In this document: positions 52,390-64,000 of the stretch, piece by piece
Layout: each line of letters begins with the position of its first letter
Numbering within the stretch: the stretch's first letter is position 1
NCBI GenBank assembly: GCA_030160035.1
Contig: BSNO01000004.1
Span: 1 to 64,000, forward strand
Direction: 5' to 3'
Source: Rhizobium albus
Lineage (GTDB): Bacteria; Pseudomonadota; Alphaproteobacteria; Rhizobiales; Rhizobiaceae
Length of the DNA: 64,000 bases
Notes under the pieces: model-generated
What the model was told of the DNA's origin: nothing
What the model saw: the letters and a program-made list of their open reading frames with translations, nothing else
Databases searched by the model: none
Made by a program: the position numbers and the translations under genes

Positions 52390-53403
52390 TCAGCCCTCCA
52401 TCGTCTCGATCATCGCCCGGCCGACACGTGCGGGCCCGGGGAAATAATCCCACTCCTGCGCATGCGGATAGGGCGTGTCCCAGCCGGTCACGCGCGTGAT
52501 CGGCGCTTCAAGATGGTAGAAACAATGCTTCTGCACGAGCGCGGCAAGCTCCGCGCCGAAGCCGGATGTCAGCGTCGCTTCATGTACGATCACGCACCGT
52601 CCGGTTTTTGAAACGGAAGCAACGATCGTTTCCAGATCGAGCGGCAGCAGCGTCTTGAGGTCGATGATTTCGGCATCGATGCCCGTATCGGCAGCGGCGG
52701 CCTCCGACACATAGGTCATCGTGCCATAGGCGAGCACGGTGAGTTCCGCGCCCGCCCGGCGCACCTCCGCCTTGCCGAGCGGCACGGTGAAGTGCCCTTC
52801 CGGCACCTCGCCCAAGGCATGTTTCGACCAGGGCGTGACAGGCTTGTCGTGATGCCCGTCGAACGGCCCGTTATAGAGCCGCTTCGGTTCCAGAAAAATC
52901 ACCGGGTCCGGATCCTCGATCGCCGCGATCAGCAGACCTTTCGCGTCGACCGGATTGGACGGAACGACGACCTTCAAACCTGAGACATGGGTGAACAGCG
53001 CTTCCGGGCTCTGACTGTGCGTCTGCCCGCCGAAGATGCCGCCGCCCGTCGGCATGCGGATCACAATCGGGCAGGTGAACTGGCCGTTGGAGCGATAGCG
53101 GATGCGCGCGGCTTCCGACGCGATCTGATCGAATGCCGGATATACATAGTCGGCAAACTGGATCTCGATGCAGGGCCTAAGGCCATAGGCCGCCATGCCG
53201 ATCGCCGCACCGACGATGCCCAGCTCGGAAATCGGCGTATCGAAGCACCGCGTCTTCCCGTATTTCTGTTGAAGGCCCGCCGTGCAGCGGAAAACGCCGC
53301 CAAAATAGCCGACATCCTCGCCGAACACGACCACGTCGTCATCGCGCTCCATCGACACATCCATGGCCGACCGGATGGCTTCGATCATCGTCATGCGCGG
53401 CAT
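52390..53403 (-). CDS. bkdAB: Branched-chain 2-oxoacid dehydrogenase E1 beta subunit
   Basis: A 337-residue transketolase-like subunit. It starts MPRMTMIEAIRSAMDVSMER with VFGEDVGYFGGVFRCTAGL, and contains RMPTGGGIFGGQTHSQSPEA, close to the cofactor-binding regions of E1beta. ATG 53403 is the right start; the frame runs further up through the RIME-like repeats, giving a repeated DPRDEPEDDG that is not part of the enzyme. A 373-base gap separates it from E1alpha. Confidence 0.93.
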   Translation of the reverse strand: MPRMTMIEAIRSAMDVSMERDDDVVVFGEDVGYFGGVFRCTAGLQQKYGKTRCFDTPISELGIVGAAIGMAAYGLRPCIEIQFADYVYPAFDQIASEAARIRYRSNGQFTCPIVIRMPTGGGIFGGQTHSQSPEALFTHVSGLKVVVPSNPVDAKGLLIAAIEDPDPVIFLEPKRLYNGPFDGHHDKPVTPWSKHALGEVPEGHFTVPLGKAEVRRAGAELTVLAYGTMTYVSEAAAADTGIDAEIIDLKTLLPLDLETIVASVSKTGRCVIVHEATLTSGFGAELAALVQKHCFYHLEAPITRVTGWDTPYPHAQEWDYFPGPARVGRAMIETMEG

Positions 53404-53483
53404 GGGCGGTTTCCTTTGACCGAACCAGACAGCCACGCAATTCCGGCATGCGCGTGGTCTGCACCCGGGCCCAACCCTACCTC

Positions 53484-53575
53484 CGTCATCCTCGGGCTCG
53501 TCCCGAGGATCTGCCAGCCCATCCGTGTCGCCGAGCCGCCAGTAAATGGTCGGGACAAGCCCGACCATGACGGCG
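53484..53575. repeat. RIME-like palindromic element, copy 1
   Basis: About 92 bases with two palindromes: CCTCGGG-ctcgt-CCCGAGG and ATGGTCGGG-acaa(g)-CCCGACCAT. The element begins CGTCATC and ends near GACGGCG. This matches the form of Rhizobium-specific intergenic mosaic elements, known from Rhizobium, Agrobacterium and Brucella relatives. It could form two stem-loops in the bkd mRNA. Confidence 0.75.
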
Positions 53576-53648
53576 TAGCTACAGGCCCGGCACAGAGGAT
53601 AGTCTTGTGACAGTTGATGGCAGCAAGCAGACGCCCCCCACCCACTGC

Positions 53649-53735
53649 CGTCATCCTCGGGCTCGTCCCGAGGATCTTCCGGTCCATCCGTCGTGCCGAT
53701 GTGCCAGTGGATGGCCGGGACGACCATGACGGCGT
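53649..53735. repeat. RIME-like palindromic element, copy 2
   Basis: A second, same-orientation copy 165 bases after the first. The first palindrome is identical to that of copy 1. The second is reduced (ATGGCCGGGACGACCAT), having lost about six bases of its loop side, so this copy is decaying. Orientation and end points match copy 1. Confidence 0.72.
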
Positions 53736-53776
53736 GGATGGACGTGCGACGTCAGTTAATTTCTCACGACCCACCA

Positions 53777-55105
<1,329 letters not shown>

Positions 55106-56635
55106 TCAGGCCTCGTGGAGCGCCTCGGCGGCAGCCCGGCCTCGCTTGGACAGCTTGGTCCAGAGGATGGGGCCGGCAACGGCAGCGATGGCGACAGCGT
55201 AGATCGTCAGGGCGATCCAAGAGGTGAAGAGAAACGTGAAATCACCCTGATTGATCATCAATCCACGGCGCAATTGCTCTTCGGCCAGTGGCCCGAGAAT
55301 GGCGCCGACGAGAACCGGCGCCAGCGGATAGTCGAACCGCCGCATGATGAAGCCGAGTATGCCGAAAACGAGCAGCAGAATGAGGGCGAAGGCCGAACCT
55401 TGGGCGCCGACGATGCCGAGCGAGGCGAAGGTCATGATGCCCGCATAGAGCCAGGGGCGCGGGATCGTCAGGAGCTTTACCCAAAGGCCGACGAACGGCA
55501 GATTGAGCACCACGAGCATCAGATTGGCAATGAAGAGACTTGCGATGAGACCCCAGACGAGCTGCGGGTTGCTGGTAAAGAGCAGCGGACCCGGCTGCAG
55601 ACCGTATTGCTGGAAGCCGGCGAGCATGACGGCGGCGGTCGCCGAGGTCGGCAGGCCGAGCGTCAGAAGCGGGATGAGCGTTCCGGCAGCGGAAGCATTG
55701 TTTGCAGCCTCCGGCCCCGCAACGCCTTCGATTGCGCCCCTTCCGCTGTCGAATTCCTCGCGCGCGACGCCTTTCGCAGTGCGGCGCTCGGTCGAATAGG
55801 ACAGGAAAGTTGGAATTTCCGCGCCGCCGGTCGGCAGCGGGCCGAACAGGAAGCCAAGGCCCGTGCCCCGCAGGAACGGCTTGAGGCAGCGCTTCAGCTC
55901 GGCAAGGCTCAGCCAGACGGAGCCTTTGACGGCCTGGAGCTTCTCGTTGATCGTGCTCGCCTGCGACGCGATGAACAGCGTCTCGCCAATGGCGAACAGG
56001 CCGACCGCAATGATGGCGATATCGATGTTGTCACGCAGTTCCGGCACGCCGAAGGACAGACGCGCCTGGCCAGTCAGGCTGTCGATGCCGACGAGTCCGA
56101 TGGACAGGCCGATGAAGAGCGCCGTCAGGCCGCGGATGATCGATCCGCCGAAGGCTGCCGAAACCGTAAGGAACGACAGCACCATCAGCGCGAAATATTC
56201 CGCCGGGCCAAAGGAGAGCGCCACCTTGACCATCAGCGGCGCGATGATCGCGAGGCCGATCGTGGCACAGGTGCCGCCGAAGAAGGAGCCGATGGCTGCA
56301 GCGCCGAGCGCTTTACCACCGCGCCCGTCCTTCGCCATCTTGTTTCCCTCGAGCGCCGTCATGATCGACGCGGTCTCGCCGGGGGTGTTCAGAAGGATTG
56401 AAGAAATCGCCCCGCCATACATGCCGCCATAATAGATGCCGGCGAACATGATCATGGAGCCGGTGGCCCCGAATGACAGCGAAACGGGCAGAAGAAGGGC
56501 GACGGTCAGTGCCGGTCCGAGGCCCGGCAGAACACCGACGGCCGTGCCGAGCAGAACGCCGAGCAGCGCAAAGCCGAGATTGGCGGGCTGGGCTGCGACG
56601 AGCAAACCATCGAAAAGAAGCGTGAACGTATCCAT
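55106..56635 (-). CDS. tctA: Tripartite tricarboxylate transporter, large permease
   Basis: A 509-residue integral membrane protein with about twelve spans. The TctA signature appears early as [19 protein letters not shown] and [18 protein letters not shown], and again in the second half around [12 protein letters not shown]. It works with TctB and the periplasmic TctC for sodium- or proton-driven carboxylate uptake. It is the third gene of tctCBA; a 104-base gap to tctB is larger than usual. Confidence 0.94.
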
Positions 56636-56739
56636 AACCGTCGGAATACTCTCGTTTGGGCCGCGACCGCCGGCTCAAGCCTGAAATTCAGAGGCTTTGT
56701 GCTGCGAGCCGCAATTCTGCGAAGGCGGAAACGCCAACT

Positions 56740-57270
56740 CTAACGAAACAGCGCGTTAAGATACGGCTCGATCAGCCCGGCCGGCAGCGACAGCCCGAGA
56801 CCCTGGCGAAAGAGCACGTAAAGCAAGGCGGAGATCACCACGCCGACGAACACGGTCAGGACCACCGGCTTGCGGCCGAAACCGCGCGCGGCACCCCCGA
56901 ACAGGACCCCGGACGCGATGATGAAACCGGCGCCCGCATAGAGCAGCGCGGTCATGCCGGCGAGTGCTCCGATGATCCAGATCACCGGAACCCAGTTCAG
57001 CGCTTCACGCTCGGGAAAATCACCGCGCCGCGCCATCACGACTGTCAGCACGCCGAAAACGGCGATGCCGACAGCGACGATGTAAGGAAAAATCTCCGGC
57101 CCGATCTGCGCATAGCTGCGCCGCTCGGGATAGGAGGAAGCGTCGAGCGCGATCAGGGCGGAGAATAGAAACAGCCCGATTGCGATCGCCAATCCGCCGA
57201 GGTCGAACTTGCGACGGGCCGCCTCGTCGGGCCGGCGCATGTCGGCCCCGCCCTGTTCGTGCGTCGCCAT
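56740..57270 (-). CDS. tctB: Tripartite tricarboxylate transporter, small permease
   Basis: A 176-residue membrane protein with four hydrophobic segments (first LGGLAIAIGLFLFSALIAL), the usual TctB topology. Family identity rests on size, topology and position between tctC and tctA; sequence conservation is low. The ATG comes one base after the tctC stop. A short hydrophilic lead (about 24 residues) precedes the first span. Confidence 0.88.
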   Translation of the reverse strand: MATHEQGGADMRRPDEAARRKFDLGGLAIAIGLFLFSALIALDASSYPERRSYAQIGPEIFPYIVAVGIAVFGVLTVVMARRGDFPEREALNWVPVIWIIGALAGMTALLYAGAGFIIASGVLFGGAARGFGRKPVVLTVFVGVVISALLYVLFRQGLGLSLPAGLIEPYLNALFR

Positions 57271-57271
57271 C

Positions 57272-58225
57272 TTACTGGCTGATGCCGAGGTCGGAGAGGA
57301 TGGCAGTCGTCGCCTCGATCTCCTGGTTCAGGTAGGTCTGGAACTCTTCGCCGTCGAGATAGGTGTTCACCCAGCCGCGTGTTTCGAGTTCGGTGGCCCA
57401 TGCTTCGGATTCCGACATCGTCCGGATCGTGTCGGTCAGTGTCTGGCGCTCTTCATCCGAAATGTCCGGGGCGGCTGCGATCATGCGCCAGTTCTGGACG
57501 TCGAGGTCGAAGCCCTGCTCGGCAAAGGTCGGCGCGTCGACATAGTCCTGCCGCTCCGGAGCGGTGATTGCGATCACCTTCACTTCGCCGGCTTCGATCT
57601 GCGATGCGAACTCGCTGTAACCGGAAATGCCAACGGTGACCTGGCCGCCGAGGATTGCCGCAAGCGCTTCGCCGCCACCGGAGAACGGGATGTAGTTCAA
57701 GGCGCGCGGGTCGACATCGGCTGCTTGGGCGAAGAGGCCGGCCGCGATGTGGTCGACGCCACCGGCGGAACCACCGCCCCAGGTGACGGAGCCTGGATCG
57801 GCGCGCATGGCTTCGGCCAGCTCTTCGGCATTGTCGATTTCGCTGTCAGCCGGTGCGATGACGACGACATACTCGCCGGTCAGACGGGCGATCGGCGTGA
57901 CATCGGCAAGCGTGACCGGAGCGGCGTTGGCGATGATGGCGCCAACCATGACGTAACCGCCGACGATCGTTGCCGTCGGGTCGCCTGCCGAGCGGTTGAC
58001 GAATTGTTGGAGACCGATCGTGCCACCGGCACCGGCAACGTTTTCGACCTGGATGTTGGACGCAAGACCTTCAGCCTGGAGCACCGACTGGATCGAGCGG
58101 GCCGTCTGGTCCCAGCCACCGCCTGGCGCTGCGGGCGCCATAATCTTCAGTTCGTCCATCTGCGCGAAAGCGGATGTGCTGGTGAGCAGTGCCGCGAAAG
58201 CAGCAGCGAATACGGATTTCTTCAA
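57272..58225 (-). CDS. tctC: Tripartite tricarboxylate transporter, periplasmic binding protein
   Basis: A 317-residue TctC/Bug-type binding protein. The signal peptide is [21 protein letters not shown]. The mature protein has the Bug signature [20 protein letters not shown] and later [20 protein letters not shown] chose the TTG at 58225 because GGGAGG is placed six bases ahead and the signal peptide begins there; no ATG fits. In Bordetella the homologous BctC, when liganded, signals to its sensor kinase. The same might apply to the kinase encoded upstream. Confidence 0.92.
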
Positions 58226-58417
58226 GATGACCTCCCAAATGTTCTGTTTCGGACGCCATGCGGCGTCGCTTCGAACGGCTGGAAGGGCAATGAAACTGTC
58301 AAGGAGCGGTCGCTGAGCAACCTCCTCCCAAGGATCGTTGAGGCCCTCCCAGACCCGATCACGGCAGAAGTTAACACGCCAACCTGTCGTCCACCTGTCA
58401 GCCATGTTCCTGCTTGA

Positions 58418-60895
58418 TCATGGAGGCGAGACGATGCCGCGCCAGGTCTCCAGAAAGCGCGCGCGCCGCTGCTGGTCGAGCGCGACCATGAGCGCCGGGC
58501 CGAGCGCGATCGGCTGCACCGCGCCTCGCCCCATCTCGGTAATGTTCGCCGCCGTCCAGATGCCGCGCACGCCACCCCGCACCGCGCCGAGCGCCGTCGG
58601 TCCCGCTGCCACCGCCTGGCCCTCGTCGGAAAGGAGAAAATCGAGAAAGAGCCTCGCCGTTTCGGCATTCGGCGCATCCCGTGCGATCACCGCGCTGCGG
58701 GTCAGCACCAGCACGTAATCATCGGGCACGATGATCTGGATGTTCGCGCCCTCCGCCTGCCGAGCAAACGCGTAGGAGCCCAGCACATTGTAGGCGATCG
58801 CCAGTTCGCCGGCGTCGACCCGATCGAGAATATCGGGGCTCGATCCGCTGAGCACGGCGCCCGTGCGCCCGAAGGCAGAAGCGAGGCGCCAGAACTGCGA
58901 TGAAATCAGTTGATCCTGCACGGCGAGCAGGTAGCCGACCCCGCTCGTTGCGATGTCGTAGGTCGCGACCTTTCCCGTCAGGCGCGCGACATTGCCTTCC
59001 AGAAACTCCGCAAGCGCCAGATGCGTGCGCGGCGCTTCATCCTGCGAGACGAGATCGGGATTGTAGACGATCACTGCGGGCTCGAAGGTAAACCCGAAAA
59101 CCTCGTTCCGCCACGTCGCCCAATCCGGCATCGACGCCACCGTGGGATCATGCCTCAATACGTGCCCATCGTTGGCAAGCTTCACCTGCAGATCGGACGA
59201 AGAGCTGATCATAAGATCAGCCGGGGGATCGAGCGTACCGGCAAGATAATTCTCGTACATCAACAGCGTGTCGGTCTCGTCGTAACGGACAGCGACGTCA
59301 GGATAGCGCTCCTGGAAGGCCTCGACGAACAGCGTGAAGAGCCGCGTATCCGTCGTTCCAACGATCGTCAGCGTTGCGAGTTCGACAGATCTTGCGGGAA
59401 ACAAAAGAGGCTCGGCAGCGGCTTGGTGCGACGGCATGAACCATGCGCCGACCAGAAGCGCGATCGCCGCAGGGATCGCCCCTCGTCCCGCGCGACCCTC
59501 CCGGCGATCGCTTCCGCGCCCAAAAAGGGGCAGGCATATCTCGGCAACAAGTCCACCACCTGCACGGTCCTTCAGTGTGAAGCGCCCGCGATGCGCCTCG
59601 GCCACGCGGCGCACGATCGCAAGGCCCAGCCCTGAACCCGGCTGATCGCCGGCGCTCGCACCGCGGCGAAAGCGCTCCATCACGGCCTCCTTCTCCACAT
59701 CGGGGATACCAGGCCCCCGATCGAGAACCGACAATTTGAGCACGTCACCGTTTTCTTCCTGTGCGCGTTCCACGCGGATGATCACGTCGCCCTGCGAATA
59801 GGCGAGCGCGTTGTCGACCACGTTCTTCAGCATCTCGCGCATGACGACGCGATCGGCGGGAAAGCCGATCTCCGCCACATCGGCTTCCATCTCGACGCTG
59901 ATGCGCATCAATTGGTCCGGATCGAGCCGCTGCGCCACTTCGTTGACCAGCGCACCGATAGCCGTCACCTGCACGTCGCGCATATCGAGACGATGCGAGA
60001 CCGTCGCATCCATCAGCAACTGGGTCACAAGCTGGCTCGATTGCACGGCACCTTGATGGATCCGCTCGACACGGGCCCGCATGGCATCCGGATCCGTTTC
60101 GTCCATGGCGACCTCCGCCTGTGCGCGCAGCGATGCGAGCGGCGTACGCACCTGGTGGGCCGCCTCCGCCACCAATTCGCTGAGACGCACCATCGACTGG
60201 TTCAGCCGTGCCATGAATTCGTTCAGCGCCCCGACAACGTGGCGCACCTCCACCGGCACCGGAATGTCCACCGGCGAGAGATCGTCGGGCGAGCGGGCGC
60301 GCAATTCACGTTCCAGCGTGAGCAGCGGCGCAAAAGTCCGCCGGATGAGATACCAGACGAGCCATGCGGCGAGCAGGGTCAGCACCAAGAGCGGCACCAG
60401 CGCGTTGTTGACGATCTCGCGCGACAGCGTTTCGCGCGCACCTTGCGTTTCGGCGACACGAATCGTGACCCAGCCGGTTCCGTCCGCCGTCGAAATCAGG
60501 CGACCGACGCTTGCAACCCGCACGACTTCGCCGCCATAGCGCACGTCATCGAACTCGGCATCGAGCGTTTGCGCAAGCGGCATATCGGCAGCAAGATCGT
60601 CATAGCCGGTGACGAGCGAGCCATCCGGCGCGCGCACCGAATAGAACACGCGGTCGTCGCCCGACACCATCGCGAAGGACGCATAAGGGAGCTCCACCGT
60701 CACGTCGCCGTCCTCGATCTGCACCGCGCCGGCGATGGTGAGCGCGGAGGCCGCGAGCAGCCGGTCGAAGGCGCGATCGGAAGCGCGCTCGGCGTAGTCC
60801 CTGATAAACACCACGAGCATGAGGGCGGCGGCCACGAGGAGGATCGCGGCAAGCGCGGTGATCCGACGGCGGATGGAGAAGCTGTCAGCGTGCAT
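58418..60895 (-). CDS. TctE-like sensor histidine kinase fused to a periplasmic solute-binding domain
   Basis: An 825-residue fusion in one frame. Residues 9-33 and about 160-185 are membrane helices around a TctE-type periplasmic sensor. The cytoplasmic part has a HAMP-like linker, H-box AEAAHQVRTPLASLR (His247), N-box NVVDNALAYS (Asn362), DRGPGIP and GSGLGLA. Then a third hydrophobic stretch (about 472-492, AIPAAIALLVGAWFM) leads to an ABC-type binding domain (about 494-825) related to FbpA-like proteins but without the YY iron motif. ATG 60895 overlaps tctD by 11 bases. Topology predicts the extra domain outside the cell membrane. Substrate unknown. Confidence 0.88.
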   Translation of the reverse strand: MHADSFSIRRRITALAAILLVAAALMLVVFIRDYAERASDRAFDRLLAASALTIAGAVQIEDGDVTVELPYASFAMVSGDDRVFYSVRAPDGSLVTGYDDLAADMPLAQTLDAEFDDVRYGGEVVRVASVGRLISTADGTGWVTIRVAETQGARETLSREIVNNALVPLLVLTLLAAWLVWYLIRRTFAPLLTLERELRARSPDDLSPVDIPVPVEVRHVVGALNEFMARLNQSMVRLSELVAEAAHQVRTPLASLRAQAEVAMDETDPDAMRARVERIHQGAVQSSQLVTQLLMDATVSHRLDMRDVQVTAIGALVNEVAQRLDPDQLMRISVEMEADVAEIGFPADRVVMREMLKNVVDNALAYSQGDVIIRVERAQEENGDVLKLSVLDRGPGIPDVEKEAVMERFRRGASAGDQPGSGLGLAIVRRVAEAHRGRFTLKDRAGGGLVAEICLPLFGRGSDRREGRAGRGAIPAAIALLVGAWFMPSHQAAAEPLLFPARSVELATLTIVGTTDTRLFTLFVEAFQERYPDVAVRYDETDTLLMYENYLAGTLDPPADLMISSSSDLQVKLANDGHVLRHDPTVASMPDWATWRNEVFGFTFEPAVIVYNPDLVSQDEAPRTHLALAEFLEGNVARLTGKVATYDIATSGVGYLLAVQDQLISSQFWRLASAFGRTGAVLSGSSPDILDRVDAGELAIAYNVLGSYAFARQAEGANIQIIVPDDYVLVLTRSAVIARDAPNAETARLFLDFLLSDEGQAVAAGPTALGAVRGGVRGIWTAANITEMGRGAVQPIALGPALMVALDQQRRARFLETWRGIVSPP

Positions 60896-61577
60896 CTGCC
60901 GGCCGAGCCTCCGCATCGGCCCTGGCAAGATACCCGATGCCGCGCACCGTCAGGATCGACACGCCGGAATTCTCGATCTTGCGGCGCAGGCGCGACACGT
61001 AGAGTTCGAGCGCATTGACGGCGACATCCTCGTCGATCGAAAAGAGCTGCTGCATCAAGCGCTCCTTCGCAACCACCTGGCCGGCGCGCGACAACAAAAT
61101 CTCCAGAAGCCGAAACTCCCGTCTCCCGATCTCGACCGGCACGCCTGCGATCGTGATCGAGTGCGCCGCGGTTTCCATCACAAGATCGCCGAGCACCATG
61201 CGGCTGGTTACGTGCCCCGTCGGCCGGCGCATGAGCGCGCGCAAGCGTGCTTCCAACTCGCGCAGATCGAACGGTTTGACGAGATAATCGTCGGCCCCCA
61301 TGTCGAGCAGACTGACGCGGTCGTCGATTTCCGAGCGCGCCGTGACGACGAGCACTGGCGTATCGTCGCCGCCGCTGCGCAGCGCCGATATCACCGAAAT
61401 CCCGTCGCGCTGCGGCAGCATGAGATCGAGGACGATGGCATCGAACGACGCATCGCGCGCAAAAGCAAGCGCTGCTTCTCCGTCGCGCACCCAATCCACC
61501 GAATGGCCGGAGCGTTTGAGCCGTCCTTCCACCGCTTCGCCCAGATCGCGATTGTCTTCGACCAGCAGAATGCGCAT
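60885..61577 (-). CDS. tctD: TctD-like OmpR-family response regulator
   Basis: A 230-residue regulator. The receiver domain has acidic pocket VEDN, phosphoacceptor Asp51 (IVLDLMLPQRDG) and Lys in DDYLVKPFD; a winged-helix DNA-binding domain of OmpR type follows (VEIGRREFRLLEILLSRAGQ). ATG 61577 begins MRILLVEDNRDL. Partnered with the overlapping kinase gene, it likely controls tctCBA in response to carboxylates. Confidence 0.92.
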   Translation of the reverse strand: MRILLVEDNRDLGEAVEGRLKRSGHSVDWVRDGEAALAFARDASFDAIVLDLMLPQRDGISVISALRSGGDDTPVLVVTARSEIDDRVSLLDMGADDYLVKPFDLRELEARLRALMRRPTGHVTSRMVLGDLVMETAAHSITIAGVPVEIGRREFRLLEILLSRAGQVVAKERLMQQLFSIDEDVAVNALELYVSRLRRKIENSGVSILTVRGIGYLARADAEARPADAR

Positions 61578-61689
61578 CGGCCTGAATGATCCCCCTTGGC
61601 GCTGCGGCACTCGCAGCGTGGCGGATTTTCAAGCCGAAGCCCGCAAAAAGCAATTCCAACCTGGGGGATAGATCAGGGGTGACAACCGA

Positions 61690-62586
61690 TCAGAACTGAA
61701 CGCGAAATGCGCGGTCGGGATCGGCCTTCAGCCCATAGACTGAGTGATATTCGAGCGCTTTGGTGACGACTGCCGGATCGCCCTCGAGCTGGTCAGGCTG
61801 CAGCAATTCACCGATGGTGAATTCGAAAGTCTGGCTCTTCTTGTTGAGGAGCTCGTGAAAGACCGTCATGTCGCGCAGCTCTGTCGACCATTTCGACAGC
61901 CAGTAGAACAGGCCGGAATTGCGCGCCGTCATGTGGACCGGCAGGATCGGCAGCCCGTATTTGCGCGACAGCGAAATCGCCGAAGACTTCCACGGCCGCT
62001 CGTTGAGCGTGCCATTGGCCCAATAGGCAATGCGGCCCGACGGAAACAGCACCGTCGCTTTTTCTTCCTTCACGGCGCGCGTCGTCAGCTGCAGCGTTTC
62101 GCGCGCTTTCAACTTGCTCTTGTGCTCTTCACGCCACTCGACCGGGATGACCATCTCCACGAAGCGTGGGTTGACGCGAATGGCATCGCGATTGGCAAAG
62201 AACATCATGTCCGGACGACGGTTCTTCAGAAGGTCGAAGACGGCGATGCCGTCGGCAATCCCGGTCGGGTGGTTCGACACCATGATGAAGCCGCCCTTTT
62301 CAGGGATGCGCTCGCCGCGGTTCACCTCGACATTCAGGTTTAACTGAGCGCTGGCATATTCGAACGCCTGGAAGCCTGGCATGTTGGCGACGGCGTCTGC
62401 AAACTGCAGCGCCTTGCCGTAGTGCAGCGCGCTGTAGAGGAATGGCCGCATCACCGGCCAGAGAGGATGATTGACCAGACGCTGCCCGCGCTCGGCGATG
62501 AGCTCATCGACAATATGGCCGGGGCGGCCTTGGGACAGCAGTGCAATGGCATCGACCACGCCGTGAATATCGCGCTTCTGCACCAT
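61690..62586 (-). CDS. Lysophospholipid acyltransferase family protein
   Basis: A 298-residue acyltransferase. The acceptor/catalytic motif reads NHPTGIADGIAV, a variant of the PlsC HX4D box with one more residue between His and Asp, followed by FPSGRIAYWANG where family members have a FPEGTRS-like box. No strong membrane helix is seen. The lead FLYSALHYGKALQFADAV is helical. ATG 62586 has GGGGAC upstream; a TTG at 62610 is in frame. It may act in lipid remodelling. It is divergent from xerC. Confidence 0.82.
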   Translation of the reverse strand: MVQKRDIHGVVDAIALLSQGRPGHIVDELIAERGQRLVNHPLWPVMRPFLYSALHYGKALQFADAVANMPGFQAFEYASAQLNLNVEVNRGERIPEKGGFIMVSNHPTGIADGIAVFDLLKNRRPDMMFFANRDAIRVNPRFVEMVIPVEWREEHKSKLKARETLQLTTRAVKEEKATVLFPSGRIAYWANGTLNERPWKSSAISLSRKYGLPILPVHMTARNSGLFYWLSKWSTELRDMTVFHELLNKKSQTFEFTIGELLQPDQLEGDPAVVTKALEYHSVYGLKADPDRAFRVQF

Positions 62587-62758
62587 AAGTGTCCCCGTTA
62601 TCGCGTCCAACCGGACATCGCATGCTCTTGTAAAGACAGCATGACAGCCCCTTTTCCGACATCACTCACTAACATCGTAACCCTTATATAACCATTGTCG
62701 CAGAGGCTTCGAGGAAAGCCACTGGATATCAAATGACGTTTCTCGGGCGTAACGTAGC

Positions 62759-63694
62759 GTGACAACCGACCTGCTCCCTGCCGCACCGGATGTGATGATG
62801 CAGCGTCAGCGATGGCTTGATGGCCTCAGCATACAGCGGCGTCTGTCAGCGAACACACTTGAGGCTTACGAGCGTGATCTCCGGCAATTCCTCCAATTCA
62901 TGAGCAGGCACATAGGTTCCATGCCTGCCATCGCCGATCTGGCAAATCTTCGTCCGACAGATCTGCGCGCCTTTCTTTCCAGCCGTCGCCGCGACGGAGC
63001 GGGGGCACGCACGCTGGGACGCGGGCTTGCAGGCGTCCGCTCGTTCCTGCGCCATCTGGAACGCGAAGGCCTCGTGAACGCGGCAGGCGCCCGCCATGTA
63101 CGCGCACCCAAGACCGGGCGAAGCCTGCCGAAGCCCCTGTCGGAAGAGCAGGCCGTCGCCGTCGCGAATCTCGATGATCAGATGTCCGACGAACCCTGGA
63201 TTGCTGCCCGCAATGCCGCCTTGCTGACGCTGCTCTACGGCTGCGGTCTTCGCATCTCGGAAGCGCTTGCATTGACGCCGGCGTCTATCGGCCCGACCAC
63301 GACGACGCTGCGCATTGCAGGCAAGGGCGGCAAGACGCGGCTCGTTCCGCTCATGGATGTCGCCAGACAGGCAATCGCCGAGTACCTAAGACTTTGCCCC
63401 TATCATCTCGCAGCGCCGGAGCCGCTCTTTCGCGGCACTCGTGGCGGCGCGCTTCATGCGGCAATCATCCAGAAGGAAATGCGCAAGATGCGGTCGGCGC
63501 TCGGGCTCCCCGATACGGCGACCCCGCATGCGCTCCGCCACTCCTTCGCCACGCATCTTCTGGCTGGCGGAGGCGATCTCAGGACCATCCAGGAACTTCT
63601 CGGGCATGCGAGCCTTTCCACCACCCAGATCTACACCGGCGTCGACAGCGCGCGGCTCCTTGCCGCCTACCGCGCAGCCCACCCGCGCGCCTAG
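62759..63694 (+). CDS. xerC: Site-specific tyrosine recombinase XerC
   Basis: A 311-residue recombinase that resolves chromosome dimers at dif. The N-terminal SAM-like DNA-binding domain (15-105) includes LSANTLEAYERDLRQFLQFM. Catalytic residues are Arg165 (GCGLRISEAL), Lys191 region (GKGGKTRLVPL), His257 and Arg260 (PHALRHSFATH), His283 (LGHASLSTTQ) and Tyr292. YGCGLRISEAL and CPYHL fit rhizobial XerC better than XerD. The start is GTG. It is not part of a mobile element here. Confidence 0.9.
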   Translation: MTTDLLPAAPDVMMQRQRWLDGLSIQRRLSANTLEAYERDLRQFLQFMSRHIGSMPAIADLANLRPTDLRAFLSSRRRDGAGARTLGRGLAGVRSFLRHLEREGLVNAAGARHVRAPKTGRSLPKPLSEEQAVAVANLDDQMSDEPWIAARNAALLTLLYGCGLRISEALALTPASIGPTTTTLRIAGKGGKTRLVPLMDVARQAIAEYLRLCPYHLAAPEPLFRGTRGGALHAAIIQKEMRKMRSALGLPDTATPHALRHSFATHLLAGGGDLRTIQELLGHASLSTTQIYTGVDSARLLAAYRAAHPRA

Positions 63695-63815
63695 AGCGTC
63701 GCCAGGCGAAGTGGGCACCGGTTCAACGTTGGGAAACGCGAGGACGGAGCGGCATTAACGATTTCTTGCGCGGGCGAATGTTATCGCAGAGCGATCAACA
63801 GCACCGGGATGTCTC

Positions 63816-64000
63816 GTGATCGCACGCATCAAAACCGTCACCGAAGAGCATCTGGCGCGCGGCGTCATCGGTTTTCTCGGATTGATCCACCTCATCATGG
63901 CGCTGAGCCTCCTCATGGTGCTGGCGACGCTTGAGCGCGCCGATGCGCAGGAGCAGCCAGCCGCATGCGGCGGCGAGAACCTCATCGACCGCATGCGCGC
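63816..64000 (+). CDS. N-terminus of a TraB/GumN-like exported protein (cut by window end)
   Basis: The first 61 codons of a gene that continues beyond the window. From a GTG at 63816 the frame gives a hydrophobic segment (GFLGLIHLIMALSLLMVLA), then AQEQPAACGGENLIDRMR, which resembles the mature N-terminus of TraB/GumN family proteins of rhizobia. An SD sequence is weak. The family call is tentative because only the start is visible. Confidence 0.5.
   Translation, partial: MIARIKTVTEEHLARGVIGFLGLIHLIMALSLLMVLATLERADAQEQPAACGGENLIDRMR

Follow-up and report, generated by a model that had tools for sequence, protein, structure and literature searches.

Does a sensor histidine kinase whose reading frame runs on into a complete solute-binding protein (SBP) keep that protein attached, or is one chain made and then separated into two products? 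The question is raised by a gene of Rhizobium albus that lies in a window of 64,000 nucleotides, which is the whole stretch of DNA analysed here. The gene occupies positions 60895..58418 on the reverse strand (ATG at 60895, stop at 58420-58418) and encodes 825 amino acids in one uninterrupted frame, and no second copy was found in its own genome. The initial annotation described it as a TctE-like kinase fused in a single frame to a full binding domain, a description borne out by the open frame and by Pfam and AlphaFold, which concur. The same annotation took the binding protein to be permanently tethered beside the kinase, and this is not the reading we prefer. We hold with moderate confidence that the fused gene encodes a signalling polyprotein, whose kinase and SBP would be split by signal peptidase, with the SBP then serving as co-sensor of TctE.

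Kinase and binding protein in one reading frame

The kinase part comprises residues 1-458 (59522..60895, reverse strand) and contains, according to Pfam and AlphaFold, a first transmembrane helix (TM1), a 2CSK_N domain, a second helix (TM2), HisKA with His247, and HATPase_c. The Pfam matches of 2CSK_N (residues 20-161, 116 bits), HisKA (residues 238-296, with the H-box at His247, 36.8 bits) and HATPase_c (residues 348-457, 74.5 bits) are over their cut-offs and follow each other in the order of the TctE type, and a HAMP match at residues 183-233 is under its own. Among the NCBIfam families the best match of the kinase part is QseC, with 166 bits against a cut-off of 475, and no TctE model occurs among the best 25 of the 76 families matched. 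The product of the neighbouring regulator gene has TctD PRK15479 as its best NCBIfam match, with 214 bits, under the cut-off of 337 bits. Because these scores stay under the curated cut-offs, the names TctE and TctD rest on domains and gene neighbourhood; by both, the kinase half is a TctE-type sensor histidine kinase with a putative response to tricarboxylates.

The C-terminal part, residues 495-825 (58421..59413, reverse strand), is assigned by Pfam, structure comparison and AlphaFold to an MctA-like, metal-citrate-binding SBP fold. Matches to SBP_bac_11, SBP_bac_8, SBP_bac_1 and SBP_bac_6 span residues ~520-774, and AlphaFold models the part as a complete two-lobed SBP. Between the two halves lies a segment resembling a signal peptide (residues 472-494, 59414..59482, reverse strand), at whose end a signal peptidase I site is predicted between A494 and E495 (AAA↓E). 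It had been considered in the initial annotation that a second start site might yield a separate binding protein as the main product. From residue 440 up to the signal-peptide-like stretch the fused gene contains no ATG, GTG or TTG codon, and ATG487 and TTG498 fall within or past that stretch; with no suitable start codon ahead of that stretch, a separate exported SBP made from an internal start is unlikely.

The neighbouring genes lie on the same strand in the order tctD, fused gene, tctC, tctB, tctA. The gene tctD (60885..61577, reverse strand; Pfam Response_reg and Trans_reg_C) encodes an OmpR/PhoB-type response regulator and shares 11 bases of its 3' end with the start of the fused gene. 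On the other side are tctC for the free solute receptor of a tripartite tricarboxylate transporter (57272..58225, reverse strand; Pfam TctC, start set from the sequence), tctB for the small membrane subunit (56740..57270, reverse strand; Pfam TctB) and tctA for the large one (55106..56635, reverse strand; Pfam TctA), so that the proposed link of the fused gene with TctD and TctCBA, including a free TctC encoded downstream, is supported. Regarding the start of tctC, its longest open reading frame (57272-58405, reverse strand) is too long, and a signal peptide together with the motif GGGAGG indicates a TTG start at 58225. No Rfam match was found in 53000-64000, and scans for sigma-70 promoters and terminators gave nothing above chance.

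The segment between kinase and binding protein

A third hydrophobic segment had been noted near residues 472-492, and it is indeed present at residues ~472-494. In the window it reads GAIPAAIALLVGAWFMPSHQAAA, followed past the predicted cleavage site by EPLLFPA, with AxA at residues 492-494. If the segment were an uncleaved third transmembrane helix, the SBP would stay beside the kinase sensor and its local concentration would be raised. The location of the C-terminus is compatible with such a tether, since a periplasmic C-terminus, as initially proposed, is predicted under tether and release alike. However, the segment is short and weakly hydrophobic in comparison with TM1 and TM2: its best 19-residue hydropathy (KD19) is 1.48 and its uncharged run 12 residues long, against 2.92 and 20 residues for TM1 and 2.41 and 16 residues for TM2. 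It resembles the signal peptides of free relatives, whose mean KD19 is 1.82 (n=13). In the AlphaFold model residues 459-493 have pLDDT below 50 and form no membrane helix, whereas TM1 and TM2 are modelled as helices.

Two free SBPs, at loci L009 and L013, differ from the fused form in this respect. Their genes start with a long uncharged hydrophobic segment that lacks AxA (KD19 of 2.86 and 2.48, uncharged runs of 21), and the products are apparently membrane-anchored co-sensors, which offer a natural contrast with the released form. They suggest that attachment to the membrane by an anchor that looks uncleaved is workable and perhaps useful, which speaks for a tether in general; the segment in the fused protein is unlike these anchors.

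The segment has the pattern of a signal peptidase I substrate, with a basic, Arg-rich n-region, a short h-region of ~10-15 residues and small residues at -3 and -1. Past the h-region, all 58 sequences examined have Ala at -1, and their -3 residue is small or aliphatic; this figure is no test by itself, the sites having been picked by that same rule. The site lies at a fixed distance from the first conserved motif of the SBP in 29 of 31 non-redundant linkers, whereas shuffling, which ignores kinship among the sequences, would place it there in 14.6. Position -2 varies freely across the linkers, and AxA is equally far from the SBP in several free, secreted relatives. That the -3/-1 motif is conserved in alpha- and betaproteobacteria while its surroundings are not argues against an uncleaved membrane helix. 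Two other tests did not discriminate: an in-house cleavage matrix with TctC as its training set failed to separate the segment from TM1 (p = 0.14), and a loose AxA test, weak as the region is Ala-rich, counted 13 against 10.6 expected. On the strength of the hydropathy, the -3/-1 motif, the fixed distance and the AlphaFold model without a helix, we prefer to read the segment as a signal peptide, internal to the chain and cleavable, and cleavage is predicted.

Cleavage might also be partial or regulated, in which case tethered and free SBP would coexist and the cut would set the sensitivity. A signal peptide placed after a folded cytosolic domain is in an unusual position, which could slow the cut; the cleavage motif, however, is canonical, and no feature indicating regulation was found, so that we regard this mixed fate as distinctly improbable.

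Fused and split forms among relatives

To learn how widespread the architecture is, as the initial annotation had suggested, searches were run on 61 genomes at the levels of genus, family and order, on 385 from the same class and on a single collection that comprises 84,980 species genomes. The fusion is carried by at least 56 distinct loci of alpha- and betaproteobacteria, including three relatives in the genus, Aureimonas, Paracoccus, Alsobacter, Azospirillum, Bordetella (in the sample: hinzii, pseudohinzii and genomospecies), Achromobacter and others. In comparison with two of the genus relatives, kinase and SBP each give a dN/dS of ~0.05-0.07, and the linker of 36 residues gives 0.12-0.18. 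A stop or frameshift between the domains had been named as a possible flaw of the fusion; none was found, and since the frame is intact in the three genus relatives and across the 56 or more loci and dN/dS is low, a sequencing or assembly error is rejected for practical purposes.

Linker length is not conserved, differing by ~20-30 residues at L077, L079 and L112, which would be less expected of a permanent tether. At L077, an Achromobacter locus, ~30 residues are added from the predicted cleavage site to the SBP.

In other loci the two parts are encoded separately. The SBP gene lies directly 3' of the kinase gene in 28 loci (some counted twice), between tctD and the kinase gene in Devosia and Bartonella, and divergently in Cupriavidus and others. 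The kinase and SBP trees are broadly congruent, so both parts travel together, and the fused or split state switches 6 times on the kinase tree and 5 times on the SBP tree. A tree that keeps the main fused clade together and leaves Devosia and Bartonella outside it is rejected (p-AU 0.007, for a clade chosen after the tree was known), and the fusions at L112 and L113 apparently arose on their own. Such easy switching is expected if the end products are identical. The repeated exchange of fused forms for split ones thus weighs against a permanent tether, as do the signal-peptide features, the -3/-1 motif and the AlphaFold model, and we consider the tether proposed initially unlikely.

It may further be asked whether the SBP senses anything, or is a transport protein merely fused to a kinase gene. 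The receptors of ABC transporters belong to the same SBP family, and in Bordetella a related transport SBP adjoins the fused gene. In Bordetella hinzii (L054:7116-11151) an ABC transporter comes after the fused gene; it consists of an SBP, a double permease and an ATPase, has a weak likeness to 2-aminoethylphosphonate or iron systems and, given the link to MctA, may be a metal-citrate importer. Yet this transporter has an SBP of its own, and no ABC permease is among the locus genes tested with Pfam in the window. Moreover, the SBP accompanies TctD and TctE in every arrangement, whether fused, tandem, SBP-first or divergent, a recurrent association of three genes, and its tree broadly tracks that of the kinase. 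A role in transport alone is therefore very improbable, and we continue with the SBP as the released co-sensor of TctE. Concerning Bordetella, the initial comparison with BctE holds in that binding-protein signalling through the periplasm is established for BctC and BctE (PMC5812351, PMC9602780), but the bctE-like kinase that B. hinzii encodes next to tctA is of the common unfused type, and the same genome has its fused gene at a separate locus, adjoining the ABC transporter.

Likely ligand, candidate operator and the predicted signalling route

The solved structures closest to the SBP are the Agrobacterium SBP 3c9h and the MctA series (PDB 7f6e and mutants). Superposition of the model on MctA spans 318 residues, with Z 43.6 and rmsd 1.8, and the whole-domain fold matches to MctA and 3c9h have Z 42-44 and identities of 33-36%. 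The positions altered in the MctA mutant entries, six in all, align with T514, D516, S565, S651, S686 and Y708 (S26T, D28D, S79S, S164S, T199S and Y221Y, from MctA to SBP), all kept or conservatively replaced; the numbering offset of MctA is deduced, and fits 6 of 6 mutated residues, whose role at the ligand is taken from their mutation in the deposited entries. D516, S565, S651 and Y708 are invariant among 19 aligned fused proteins. The fold is common to all three, with ligand-site correspondence for MctA, whereas MctA, named as an ABC-transport receptor, and 3c9h are free proteins and the SBP here is joined to a kinase. From the MctA fold and the kept ligand-site residues, citrate or metal-citrate is the likely ligand, of the same class as that of the neighbouring transporter. 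This weakens the earlier idea that the tethered domain senses one ligand and TctC another, as the site is of metal-citrate type and probably takes a ligand of the kind that TctC carries.

A direct repeat, TGACAGGTGGACGACAGGT, lies shortly 3' of the fused gene and ahead of tctC (58382..58400, reverse strand), and is the sole exact copy in the 4-Mb genome. Most fused loci have the pattern GACAG-N6-GACAG in the equivalent position, namely ahead of tctC in the alphaproteobacterial ones and 3' of the fused gene in Achromobacter and in Bordetella, where the ABC transporter comes next; it is also found ahead of tctC in several split loci. The pattern was counted 80 times in the full set of loci, related ones being entered separately, and mostly with this one spacing, whereas scrambled half-sites gave a median of 2. 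The GACAG half-sites recur with an 11-base period, which is typical of repeats bound by OmpR/PhoB-family regulators. The repeat is thus a likely candidate operator of TctD; a known TctD binding motif was sought in PMC6403454 and not found.

We infer the following route. The kinase part would insert in the membrane as an ordinary TctE, the internal signal peptide after the ATPase domain would take the SBP across the membrane, and signal peptidase I would cut at AAA↓E (494/495) and free it. The products would be a TctE that keeps an additional membrane stub at its C-terminus and, in equal number, an SBP soluble in the periplasm. The SBP would bind citrate or metal-citrate and, once loaded, dock on the 2CSK_N sensor of TctE, a step modelled on BctC and BctE of Bordetella (PMC5812351, PMC9602780). 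TctE would then phosphorylate TctD, which would bind GACAG-N6-GACAG ahead of tctCBA and switch on citrate-type uptake.

The two-component systems TctDE and BctDE control tctCBA and bctCBA (PMC5812351, PMC9602780). Like the present system they combine a 2CSK_N kinase and an OmpR-type regulator beside a tricarboxylate transporter, but there the role of co-sensor falls to the free transport receptor of the TctC type, whereas here a dedicated MctA-type SBP lies within the kinase frame. About ten kinases activated by separate SBPs have been characterised, and SBP-kinase signalling is thought to be common (PMC9602780). In these kinases, as here, an SBP fold confers ligand specificity on a histidine kinase, but the SBP of the fused protein is C-terminal, past the ATPase domain, and has a predicted signal peptide of its own. 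The same likeness and difference hold for kinases with built-in N-terminal SBP domains, such as BvgS. FbcH of Bradyrhizobium, a polyprotein of cytochrome b and cytochrome c1, is one chain split at an internal signal peptide; it belongs to a respiratory complex, is not a sensor and has no sequence relation to the fused kinase and SBP. No paper on this fusion, and none confirming FbcH as a precedent, was found in the open literature searched, which takes in few subscription journals. With marginally less confidence than for the splitting itself, we regard the gene product as probably a sensing polyprotein, whose C-terminal co-sensor would be exported and released; the two partners would then be made in a constant 1:1 ratio, and membrane anchors would flank the catalytic part of the kinase.

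As the fusion names the SBP partner of the kinase, the pair, its likely ligand, the operator and the target transporter can be tested jointly. If the cleavage is real, it would be an unusual bacterial way of fixing the ratio of receptor to co-sensor, and automated annotation would likely miss the polyprotein because its product is entered as a single kinase. The natural fused, split and anchored relatives provide a ready series for studying the effect of tethering on sensing.
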